Assembly (NCBI RefSeq): GCF_000224005.2
Contig: NZ_CP007031.1
Coordinates: forward strand, 2,261,001-2,325,000
Direction: 5' to 3'
Source of the DNA: Marichromatium purpuratum 984
GTDB lineage: Bacteria; Pseudomonadota; Gammaproteobacteria; Chromatiales; Chromatiaceae
DNA length: 64,000 bases
A model generated the notes under the pieces. That model did not search any database. It saw only the letters and a list, made by a program, of their open reading frames with translations, and was not told the DNA's origin. Shown here one piece after another: positions 49,788 to 52,900 of this stretch (position 1 is its first letter; each line of letters opens with the position of its first letter). A program made the translations under genes and the position numbers.

Positions 49788-49804
49788 GCGGTCAGGCGAC
49801 AGCG

Positions 49805-49846
49805 ACCAGCGACCAGCCACCAGCGATCAGCCTCCAGCCACCAGTG
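49805..49846 (+). repeat. Degenerate ACCAGCS heptamer array, about 6 copies
   Basis: ACCAGCG, ACCAGCC, ACCAGCG, ATCAGCC, TCCAGCC, ACCAGTG follow each other without spacers. They are the reverse complement of the GGCTGRC type at 49964-50075. Confidence 0.85.
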
Positions 49847-49957: not shown

Positions 49958-49963
49958 TTTTCC

Positions 49964-50075
49964 GGCTGACGGCTGACGGCTGACGGCTGACGGCTGACGG
50001 CTGACGGCTGACGGCTGACGGCTGGCGGCTGGCGGCTGGCGGCTGGCGGCTGGCGGCTGGCGGCTGGCGGCTGGC
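49964..50075 (+). repeat. Heptanucleotide array: 8 x GGCTGAC then 8 x GGCTGGC
   Basis: Sixteen perfect head-to-tail 7-bp units. The first eight are GGCTGAC (49964-50019) and the last eight GGCTGGC (50020-50075). Such an array is prone to slippage and length variation. Confidence 0.97.
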
Positions 50076-50149: not shown

Positions 50150-50614
50150 ATGTTCTCCGACGATCGACAGAGCTATCGCAGTGCCTTCGTGACCGCCTGG
50201 CGCAAGGCCGCCGAGGAGCAGCCGCTCGACCCCACCGAGACGCAGATCGTTGCCGTCGCACGCGCCCACCCCGAGTACCACGCCCTGCTCGAGGCCGGCG
50301 ACGACGCGCTCGATCGCGACTTCCTCCCCGAACACGGGGAGACCAACCCCTTCCTCCACATGGGGCTGCACATGGCGGTGCTCGACCAGTTGGGCACCGA
50401 CCAGCCGCGCGGCATTCGCGCGCGCTACCAGACGCTGGTCGCCAGACTCGGCGACACCCACGCCGCCGAGCACCGCGTCATGGAGTGTCTCGCGCAGACG
50501 ATGTGGCGATTGCAGCGCGAGCCCGGCGCCACTTTCGACGAGACGACCTATCTCGACTGCATCGGCAGGTCGTCCAAGCCCGGCAAGTCGCGAAAATCCC
50601 GCAAGTCACGCTGA
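50150..50614 (+). CDS. DUF1841 family protein
   Basis: 154 aa. FSDDRQSYRSAFVTAWRKA, HPEYHALLEAGDDALDRDF, and NPFLHMGLHMAVLDQLGTDQ with AAEHRVMECLAQTMW are characteristic of the uncharacterised DUF1841 family of beta/gammaproteobacteria. Several conserved His/Glu suggest a metal-binding or helical-bundle protein; the role is unknown. The C-terminus is a basic tail (KPGKSRKSRKSR). The ATG at 50150 is preferred over 50105, which would add residues next to the repeats. Confidence 0.85.
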   Translation: MFSDDRQSYRSAFVTAWRKAAEEQPLDPTETQIVAVARAHPEYHALLEAGDDALDRDFLPEHGETNPFLHMGLHMAVLDQLGTDQPRGIRARYQTLVARLGDTHAAEHRVMECLAQTMWRLQREPGATFDETTYLDCIGRSSKPGKSRKSRKSR

Positions 50615-50645
50615 GCCTTCGCGCGGAGACGCGCCGCTCACCCTC

Positions 50646-50718
50646 GATTTCCTCGAAATCCATGCGTTGAATTCGCGTTCAACGCAGCCACTCTCTTAAT
50701 CCCGACCTCAAAGGTCGG
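50646..50718. promoter_or_regulatory. Three consecutive perfect dyads upstream of hvfA
   Basis: GATTTC-CTC-GAAATC (50646-50660), GCGTTGAA-TTCGCG-TTCAACGC (50664-50685) and CCGACCT-CAA-AGGTCGG (50702-50718) follow one another in 73 bp, ending 80 bp before the precursor gene. The region is the likely control region of the cluster; the first two may instead be hairpins ending the DUF1841 transcript. Confidence 0.5.
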
Positions 50719-50798
50719 ATATGACGGTCGTCCCCGGTGCGACAGGCGCCCGACCACCAGCACACGCGACGCTTCACTCACTATCGAGGATCGAGACC

Positions 50799-51080
50799 AT
50801 GTCCGACATCAAGACCAAGACCACCCTGACCACCGCCTCCGGCCTGCTCGGCGCCGCCCTGGTTGGCAGCCTCGCCGCCGTCGCCCCGGCCAGCGCCGAG
50901 CAGAACCCCTTCGCCGCCACGGTGATGGATAGCGGCTACATGCAGCTCGCCTCGGCCGACGCCGAGGGTAAGTGTGGCGAAGGCAAATGCGGTGGCGACA
51001 AGGACAGCGAGGGCAACTGCGGCGGCGACAAGGGCATGGAAGGCAAGTGCGGCGAAGGCAAGTGTGGCGGCGCGAGCTAG
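50799..51080 (+). CDS. hvfA: HvfA-type RiPP metallophore precursor with EGKC motifs
   Basis: 93 aa. A signal peptide (TASGLLGAALVGSLAAVAPA, cleavage near ASA33) is followed by a low-complexity C-terminal part with five Cys: EGKC at 56-59, 61-64, 81-84 and 86-89, and EGNC at 71-74. EGKC cysteines of HvfA-type precursors are converted to oxazolone-thioamide copper ligands by a DUF692 (MNIO) enzyme with a DUF2063 partner. Both partner genes follow immediately (3-bp gap, then overlap). The exported product should bind Cu(I) in the periplasm. The single EGNC variant may escape modification. Confidence 0.9.
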   Translation: MSDIKTKTTLTTASGLLGAALVGSLAAVAPASAEQNPFAATVMDSGYMQLASADAEGKCGEGKCGGDKDSEGNCGGDKGMEGKCGEGKCGGAS

Positions 51081-51083
51081 CCG

Positions 51084-51929
51084 ATGACCACCGGACCCGC
51101 GGGCATCCACGGCGCCGGTCTGGGGCTACGGCGCGAGTTCGTGCGCGCCGTGCTCGACACGCCTCCGGCGGCGGTCGATTTCTATGAAATCGCTCCGGAG
51201 AATTGGGTCGGCATGGGCGGGGCCAACGCCCGACGGCTGCGCGCCCTGACCGAGCGTCACCCTTTCGTCTGTCACGGGCTGTCGCTCTCGCTCGGCGGAC
51301 CGGCGCCGCTCGACCTGGAGCTGGTGCGTGCGATCGGCGACTTCCTCGATGTCCACGACATCGAGATCTACTCCGAGCACCTGAGTTATTGCAGCGACGA
51401 CGGCCAGCTCTACGACCTGCTGCCGATCCCCTTCACCGAGGCAGCCATCGCTCACGTCGTCGCCCGCATCAGTCGGGTGCAGGACATCCTCGGGCGCCGC
51501 ATCGCCGTCGAGAACGTCTCCTACTACGCAGCGCCCGGCCAGGAAATGACCGAGATCGACTTCATCGGCGCGGTGCTCGAACGCGCCGATTGCGAGCTGC
51601 TGCTCGACGTCAACAACATCCACGTCAATGCCGTCAATCACGGCTACGACGCCCTCGATTTCCTCCGCGCCCTGCCCGGCGAGCGCATCCGCTACGGTCA
51701 TGTCGCCGGACACTATGTCGCCTCCCCGGAGCTGTGCATCGACACCCACGGCAGCGCGGTGATCGACCCGGTCTGGTCGCTGCTGGCGGCAGCCTACGAC
51801 CACTTCGGCGTCTTCCCCACCCTGCTCGAGCGCGACTTCAACATCCCACCCCTGGCGCAACTCATCGACGAGGTCGCACAGATCACCACGATCCAGCGCC
51901 GCGCCCTGCCGGAGCGCGCCCATGGTTGA
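51084..51929 (+). CDS. hvfB: DUF692 multinuclear iron oxidase (MNIO), peptide-modifying
   Basis: 281 aa TIM-barrel enzyme of the DUF692/MNIO family. Metal-site and core motifs: [111 protein letters not shown] and [11 protein letters not shown]. It oxidises cysteine residues of the precursor encoded directly upstream, needing the DUF2063 protein encoded directly downstream. Start and stop lie within 10 bp of both neighbours. Confidence 0.93.
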
Positions 51930-52698
51930 GTTCGCCGCCCACCAACAGGCCTTCTGCGCCCACCTGCGCGACCCCGAACGGGCCGACGCGCCGACTGACG
52001 TCGCACCCGAGCGGATGCGCGTCTATCGCGAGCTGATCTTCAACAACCTCGACTCACTGCTCGCCGGCAGCTTCCCGGTGCTCCACCGCATCCTCAAGTC
52101 GGCGCACTGGCACGCGCTGGTACGCGCCTTTCTCGTCGAACACCGCGCTCGCACGCCATTGTTCCACCGTCTCCCCGGCGAATTCGTCGACTTCCTCGGG
52201 CAGCGCCCCACCACCGCCGACGACCCGCCCTTCCTGCTCGAACTGGCGCACTACGAATGGGTCGAGATCGCGCTGCACAACAGCGAAGCCGAGGCCGACC
52301 TCGAGGGCATCGACCCCAACGGCGACCTGCTCGCCGCCACGCCGGTACGCAGCCCCCTGGCCTGGTCACTGAGCTATCGCTTTCCCGTCCATCGCATCGC
52401 CCCGGATCACCAGCCCGAGACCCCAGCCGCCGAGCCGGTACAACTGGTGGTGCTGCGCGACCGCACCCAGCAAGTGCGCTTCATCGAGATCAACGCCGTC
52501 ACCCAGCGCCTGCTGCAACGCATCGAGACCACCCCATCGTCGAGCGGACGCGAAGCGCTGCTGGGCATCGCCGCCGAACTGCGCCACCCCGAGCCCGAGC
52601 GAGTGATCGAATTCGGCGCCACGACCCTCGCGCGTCTCCGTGCCGAGGGCGTGCTGCTCGGCACCCGTCCCGCCATCACGCCAGTGATCGCGGCCTGA
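51922..52698 (+). CDS. hvfC: DUF2063 partner protein of the MNIO enzyme
   Basis: 258 aa. The N-terminal DUF2063 helical domain ([60 protein letters not shown]) is followed by a C-terminal domain with the pattern [13 protein letters not shown] and [20 protein letters not shown]. In HvfC/BufC-type systems this protein recognises the leader/precursor and binds the MNIO. It overlaps hvfB by 8 bp. A short GC hairpin CCGGCG-N6-CGCCGG (52701-52718) follows the stop without a T-run. Confidence 0.92.
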
Positions 52699-52900
52699 GT
52701 CCGGCGAGAAAACGCCGGGCACCGCCCGCCCCCTTCCCCTGCCCGCCCCATCCATGACCAAGCTGTTACACTCAGCCTGGACGGGAGGGCGTGTCTGGCA
52801 AGCGCAGCGCCCGGCGCGATTCGGCAGCCAACGCATTCGCGCACGCCTCCGTCATCATCCATGGCCGATGCCGGGCAACAACCTGGAGGAAGGTGACACC

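Follow-up and report, generated by a model that had tools for sequence, protein, structure and literature searches.

An HvfABC-type locus in Marichromatium purpuratum 984 and the placing of lysine in EGKCG precursors

A window of 64,000 nucleotides from the one-contig genome of Marichromatium purpuratum 984 (3,779,112 bases) contains three adjacent genes that are best explained, at a probability of roughly 85%, as an HvfABC-type locus of the EGKCG or 'Lys-Cys' captophorin kind, which would make a thiooxazole-bearing Cu(I) peptide. Judged from its genes, the locus belongs to the EGKCG (oxazolin/captophorin) family of copper RiPPs and is an ordinary representative of it. The part worth following is the pattern of lysine within this family: residues other than Lys before the cysteine gather at solitary sites, and the precursor in the window is an example of the rule, with Lys in both of its pairs and Asn at its single site.

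Genes and predicted product

The features discussed below all lie on the forward strand:

50663..50686, + strand, 24-nt inverted repeat with 9-bp arms upstream of hvfA, in a region conserved in 3/3 Marichromatium compared
50702..50718, + strand, 17-nt inverted repeat ahead of hvfA, CCGACCT-CAA-AGGTCGG, possible operator
50799..51080, + strand, hvfA, RiPP precursor of 93 aa (NCBIfam NF050137)
50799..50897, + strand, signal peptide-like start, HvfA residues 1-33, translation judged by eye, likely cleavage after APASA
50928..50951, + strand, DSGYMQLA, conserved GY motif ahead of the core, possible RRE contact
50964..50993, + strand, first pair EGKCGEGKCG, residues 56-65, in neither congener compared
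51009..51023, + strand, EGNCG variant at the solitary site, residues 71-75, with AAC as the Asn codon (51015-51017)
51039..51068, + strand, C-terminal pair EGKCGEGKCG, residues 81-90, common to 3/3 Marichromatium compared
51084..51929, + strand, hvfB, MNIO maturase (PF05114) of 281 aa
51922..52698, + strand, hvfC, DUF2063/RRE partner protein (PME-type 1) of 258 aa

These are three intact open reading frames, which confirms the first-pass annotation of a complete precursor, MNIO enzyme and DUF2063 partner. It had also called the genes overlapping; this holds for hvfB and hvfC, which share 8 nt (51922-51929), and fails for hvfA and hvfB, whose stop (51080) and start (51084) leave a gap of 3 nt. 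A longer hvfA start (50721, 119 aa) was rejected, as a 16-nt gap ahead of 50799 in M. gracile breaks that frame.

A chance match is excluded because each protein exceeds a curated NCBIfam cut-off: HvfA that of NF050137 for the KCGExKCG domain (36.7 against 19.5 bits, E 2.4e-9), HvfB that of the equivalog NF003818 (425.9 bits, cut-off 360, E 6.3e-128) and HvfC that of the equivalog NF050145 (302.4 bits, cut-off 142, E 2.7e-90). HvfA falls below the strict HvfA equivalog model NF050188 (33.5 bits, cut-off 95) and is therefore labelled HvfA-family rather than an HvfA equivalog; a Pfam scan of it gave zero matches, hence no DUF2282. HvfB lies under the cut-offs of the BufB model (271.7 bits, cut-off 310) and of the methanobactin MbnB model TIGR04159 (38.5 bits, cut-off 325). 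A search of the 3.78-Mb genome turned up no MNIO gene besides hvfB. HvfC carries the Pfam domains PF09836 and PF22106, with NGO1945_C at E 2.3e-29. By sequence, the nearest solved structures are PDB 3bww for HvfB (E 3.2e-67) and PDB 3dee for HvfC (E 9.3e-10).

The active site of HvfB was compared by aligning the protein of the window with those of 79 of 80 relative loci (the exception, L059, is truncated at a contig end). Eighteen positions, picked as likely iron or substrate contacts, are invariant in 80/80 aligned proteins: R16, R17, H64, E98, H99, E143, N144, D175, N177, N178, H206, H210, D220, H222, E249, R250, D251 and F252. H180, also checked, varies and is mostly Tyr in the relatives. 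Equivalents of FonB Arg15, Arg16, Asp249 and Phe250 are present in 80/80, as matched by the adjacent Arg-Arg and Asp-Phe motifs with FonB itself unaligned. HvfB is a standard enzyme, with no feature in its sequence that would mark adaptation to Asn before Cys. Family models and invariant active-site residues support the HvfABC-type copper-RiPP assignment proposed at first pass; gene identities, completeness, and the conservation of catalytic residues and motifs are direct observations.

The core of HvfA, EGKCGEGKCGGDKDSEGNCGGDKGMEGKCGEGKCGG, is laid out as EGKCGEGKCG-GDKDS-EGNCG-GDKGM-EGKCGEGKCG-GAS. Its five Cys, spaced by 5, 10, 10 and 5 residues, are exactly the four EGKC and one EGNC sites counted earlier, and the leader has none. 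A GY lies at most 40 residues ahead of the core in 57/61 surveyed precursors, read as stop-to-stop frames in which a few GY may belong to unrelated upstream sequence.

Several relatives have been characterised. FonBC installs 5-thiooxazoles on EGKCG repeats and the product binds Cu, in a class named captophorins (PMC12668002 / PMC13097082); FonA and NgoA alike are described as making 5-thiooxazoles and binding Cu (PMC12668002). HvfA of nontypeable Haemophilus influenzae has three AEGKCGEGKCG motifs, whose modifications have been reassigned to 5-thiooxazole (PMC13419390), and MmrA precursors, with 5-8 Cys, yield a product that binds Cu(I) (PMC12538549). Thiooxazole chemistry, export and copper binding would carry over from these relatives to the window. 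HvfA would be made with a Sec-type signal peptide and presented by the RRE of HvfC to HvfB, an iron oxidase that would turn core Cys into 5-thiooxazoles with four H lost at each. The exported peptide would, as in its relatives, bind Cu(I) and probably act as a periplasmic copper buffer. Its 5-spaced EGKCGEGKCG pairs may be the units under selection for Lys, and the solitary EGNC may belong to a relaxed class, probably still modified, perhaps more slowly. EGKCG arrays near HvfB in 71/113 loci of a first survey (duplicates included) and in 54/60 fresh loci support this explanation, as does the presence of an HvfX-family gene elsewhere in the genome.

The product might instead serve in something other than copper buffering, such as handling another metal, redox stress or copper uptake. 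Pfam scans of three neighbouring genes (DUF1841, Host_attach/baeRF and a pyridine nucleotide-disulphide oxidoreductase) revealed no copper gene, and in Microbulbifer the MmrA-C proteins were undetected with or without added copper, which left the authors hesitant about a protective role (PMC12538549). Against this stands the Cu(I) binding of the characterised EGKCG products, and we regard such a role as unlikely next to copper buffering.

Upstream region and genomic surroundings

The two inverted repeats ahead of hvfA (50663-50718), conserved across the three Marichromatium compared, are possibly an operator or an RNA hairpin. In the other two species the 24-nt repeat has single substitutions that would still allow G-U pairing in RNA, and 50655-50798 folds as RNA with z = -2.74. 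The 17-nt repeat has 8-bp arms in M. gracile and is partly broken in M. bheemlicum; GACCTTGAAGGTC is also found about 99 nt ahead of the chosen hvfA start in another locus, L091. Searched together with its flank ATATGA, the 17-nt dyad has a single genome match at up to three mismatches, the window itself, so no regulon can be drawn from it. A search for a sigma-70-type promoter gave zero matches within 50560-52900. Further upstream, before the DUF1841 gene, lie two 7-nt tandem arrays, CGGCTGA in 15.9 copies (49963-50073) and GCGACCA in 7.1 copies (49796-49844); a query of three head-to-tail GGCTGAC copies has 61 matching positions, spread over 11 places of the genome and both strands, and its backward control has none.

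No DoxX/HvfX gene lies in the cluster. The sole one found in the genome (G000:C1:725518-726036) is about 1.6 Mb off and scores 226 bits with the HvfX family model NF050144 (cut-off 80). It belongs to a closely spaced row (gene at 7462-8064 of L125, about 725.5-726.1 kb of G000:C1) in which PBP-like and GGDEF genes precede it and a sigma-54 response regulator comes next. Among 96 family genomes, HvfB (E <= 1e-100, a line hand-picked after viewing the search results) occurs in 33, HvfX over its cut-off in 22 and both in 20. HvfX is found in 2/63 genomes without HvfB by that line (Fisher p 4e-10, uncorrected for kinship), and 13/33 HvfB genomes have no HvfX over the cut-off. The two genes are at most 3 kb apart in 16/20 genomes with both, and one further genome (G066) has an HvfX about 4 kb away; in the three Marichromatium they lie about 1.6 Mb apart (the window) or on separate contigs (two drafts). 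The fon cluster is likewise described without DoxX/HvfX, so the gene is not strictly defining (PMC12668002 / PMC13097082). A tblastn search with HvfA for plasmid-borne copies gave zero matches at E 1e-5, a weak test with low-complexity filtering on.

Lysine at paired and solitary sites

The congeners give a first view of how the variant site changes. HvfB of the window is identical at 258/281 positions to that of M. gracile and at 256/281 to that of M. bheemlicum (91-92%), and these two are closer to each other (272/282) than to the window; HvfB was found in 3/4 Marichromatium genomes searched (own included), the fourth being 83% complete. The middle-site codon is AAC (Asn) in the window and M. 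bheemlicum and AAG (Lys) in M. gracile, with the Cys kept in all three. Because M. gracile and M. bheemlicum are closer to each other than to the window, either the ancestor of the genus had Asn and a reversion followed, or Asn arose twice; under either history the sequences suggest that Asn and Lys are exchangeable at this site. Of the three species, only that of the window has the first pair; both congeners have EGKCGGAGGDKD in its place. The picture of two pairs flanking a single EGNC is thus accurate for the window and does not extend to the genus, where the congeners are without the first pair. A Thiohalocapsa precursor (L020) has the pair-single-pair layout with Lys at the middle site. 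Repeat number and layout change fast, even among three Marichromatium.

A survey of related loci placed the variant in a wider frame. In the first set 113 loci were read (several fetched twice; L113 is the DoxX locus), of which 71 had a precursor with at least two KCG and at least two [EDQ][GA]xC, 61 of them distinct; the 42 loci without a precursor include contig-end cuts, Thiocapsa without an adjacent precursor, and KCG-poor precursors. The residue before Cys at the 317 [ED][GA]xCG sites is Lys in 269, Ser in 23, Ala in 16, Thr in 3, and Asn, His and Gln in 2 each, and in 24/61 precursors at least one site has a residue other than Lys or Arg. Solitary sites are common (159/317). The fresh set, drawn by the same rules after the pattern had been noticed, came from class- and phylum-wide draws of 60 loci (one being the window), 54 with a precursor and 51 of these new and distinct. 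Between the sets identical cores alone were removed, so they are not independent in kinship. Its 388 sites have Lys in 365, Asn in 8, Ser in 4, Arg, Gln, Thr and His in 2 each, and Ala, Met and Gly in 1 each, and 12/51 precursors carry something other than Lys or Arg at one or more sites; seven of the eight Asn sites are EGNCG (5/51 precursors, five genera) and one is EANCG. Since the demand for KCG undercounts non-Lys residues, the survey was rerun with a looser filter of at least three [EDQ][GA]xCG, giving 126 distinct precursors (19 gained, 5 lost) and 776 sites with Lys at 631; here 8/126 precursors contain EGNCG, and 54/126 depart from both Lys and Arg at some site.

The first-pass annotation had presented EGNC as a special test of how strictly the enzyme needs Lys. 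This idea is weak in view of the occurrence of EGNCG in five further genera of the fresh set and of the reported behaviour of FonBC, which tolerates Ala, Arg and Thr in the place of Lys and is severely impaired by Phe and Glu (PMC12668002). By these sequences EGNC is an uncommon but recurring natural variant. Its proposed novelty does not stand.

The survey also yielded some observations of their own. The last Cys interval is 5 in 31/61 precursors against 60/227 other intervals (p 3e-4), a difference with kinship uncontrolled on which no claim is based. By eye, EF-hand-like sequences lie inside or behind the EGKCG arrays of L052, L069, L149, L166, L168, L169, L174 and L176; EF-hand fusions of EGKCG precursors have already been described (PMC12452194). 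HvfB of the Thiocapsa loci L005-L008 and of L014 is 71-74% identical to that of the window, and no EGKC precursor was recognised in their fetched stretches; in L006 the place upstream of hvfB is taken by a DUF302 gene, and another Thiocapsa MAG (L009) has an EGKC precursor.

For the placing of Lys, a site was called paired if another site lies 5 residues away, and non-Lys labels were shuffled within each precursor. In the combined sets (112 precursors) 38/48 non-Lys residues are at solitary sites against 20.4 expected (p 5e-5, the lowest value that 20,000 shuffles allow), with 21/26 informative precursors following this direction and 5/26 the opposite one. The first set gives 23/29 against 13.1 expected (14 informative precursors), the fresh set 15/19 against 7.2 (12 informative precursors), and the looser filter 46/67 against 27.7, with 6/30 precursors opposite. 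The bias survives when similar cores are thinned, leaving 98, 91 or 61 precursors, and, in the combined sets, when Methylococcales-type and Lysobacteraceae precursors are dropped; the first set minus four Lysobacteraceae is weaker (10/16 against 6.1 expected, p 0.019).

A test by position used 743 sites with at least three of four consensus neighbours, 233 solitary and 510 paired. Lys is changed at 50/233 solitary against 15/510 paired sites (p 3e-15, pooled and ignoring kinship), whereas Glu1 (11/233 against 30/510) and Gly2 (15/233 against 35/510) show no contrast. Gly5, after the Cys, shows a weaker one in the same direction (7/233 against 3/510, p 0.013, likewise pooled and ignoring kinship). 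For EGNCG alone in the strict sets, 6/9 sites are solitary and the three paired ones all belong to one fresh precursor, L126, a counter-example to the rule.

Such a pattern could arise as a by-product of repeat homogenisation, the pairs being recent copies and hence uniform. The fast turnover of repeat number and layout among the congeners would fit, but the codons point the other way: identity among paired EGKCG is 0.60 (0.56 within a pair) against 0.65 between solitary and paired motifs (40 precursors, Wilcoxon p 0.014), and solitary motifs are more alike, at 0.72 against 0.59 (21 precursors, p 0.016). With these codon identities homogenisation is disfavoured and a very improbable cause.

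The non-Lys pattern supports, at the level of sequence, the pairs as functional units. Our tentative proposal, held at less than even odds, is that the 5-spaced pair rather than the single motif is the functional unit, with Lys selected for the role of the pair and the solitary sites forming a relaxed second class; this role might be, for example, charge balance at a Cu(I) site formed by two thiooxazoles, or to let the enzyme step from site to site. The pattern itself seems to be new. A paired/solitary difference is not found in the passages covered of the related papers, and the words "solitary" and "paired" are missing from the main text of PMC12452194, as are "solitary" and "spacing" from that of PMC13097082.

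A narrower version of this proposal takes the pairs as defined Cu(I) sites, in which selection keeps Lys before Cys for the sake of metal binding rather than recognition by the enzyme. Both the confinement of the contrast to Lys over Glu1 and Gly2 and the permutation results, repeated in the fresh set, are in its favour. The weaker contrast at Gly5 fits an enzyme preference equally well, L126 carries its EGNCG in pairs, the first pair of the window is not conserved across the genus, and the authors of PMC12668002 suspect that EGKCG products bind Cu stochastically. We consider it conceivable but short of probable, and between enzyme preference and metal-site function sequence alone cannot choose.

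The pattern does not mean that EGNC stays unmodified. It may be that the solitary Cys remains a free thiol, untouched by HvfB, and that the product has four thiooxazoles, since a FonA peptide with two repeats was reported modified and one with a single EGKCG repeat unmodified (PMC12668002 / PMC13097082); the concentration of non-Lys on solitary sites is also what would be expected of poor, drifting substrates. Several points speak against this, among them the tolerance of FonBC before Cys and a single modification reported for an NVCGG substrate. In MmrA, mutants of either pair Cys of cassette 1 still lost 4 H (PMC12538549), so that one Cys alone can be modified there. The middle Cys is moreover retained in all three Marichromatium, and solitary sites make up about half of the first set. 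We hold the free thiol to be somewhat doubtful; modification of all five Cys, an outcome counted at first pass as refuting, is likely.

The precursor of the window is a natural test piece for these ideas, uniting two pairs with Lys and a single site with Asn in one small peptide. The survey predicts that replacing Lys by Asn within a pair is costlier than at the single site, which would help to separate enzyme preference from metal-site function.

Comparison with known systems

The bufferins (BufA1/DUF2282 and BufA2) resemble the window in their MNIO and DUF2063 partner and their signal peptide, and they bind copper (PMC12452194); in contrast to them, HvfA has no DUF2282 and HvfB scores under the BufB cut-off. 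The same source describes about 2,000 Buf_EGKCG/oxazolin precursors, one type of which has 17-residue repeats with two EGKCG each (PMC12452194). MmrABC of Microbulbifer, the source of bulbicupramide, shares two-EGKCG cassettes and a range of 5 to 8 Cys per precursor with the window; MmrA of the studied strain has three two-Cys cassettes, and no EGNC is mentioned in the sections of PMC12538549 covered.

FonABC of Fontimonas thermophila, which makes fontiphorin, is like the window a minimal precursor-MNIO-PME1 cluster with EGKCG repeats and, by motif, the Arg-Arg and Asp-Phe residues. FonA has seven modification sites, and its 5-thiooxazoles and Cu binding have been demonstrated, whereas those of the window are predicted. 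HvfABC of nontypeable H. influenzae, which makes oxazolin, shares a signal-peptide precursor with EGKCG pairs, the MNIO HvfB and the RRE partner HvfC. Its HvfA has three pairs and six Cys where the window has pair-single-pair and five, and HvfX lies inside the operon in H. influenzae and is unlinked in the genome of the window. The hvfABC loci of M. gracile and M. bheemlicum differ from the window in the missing first pair and in their middle sites, EGKC and EGNC respectively, and have in common with it the upstream region and the C-terminal pair.
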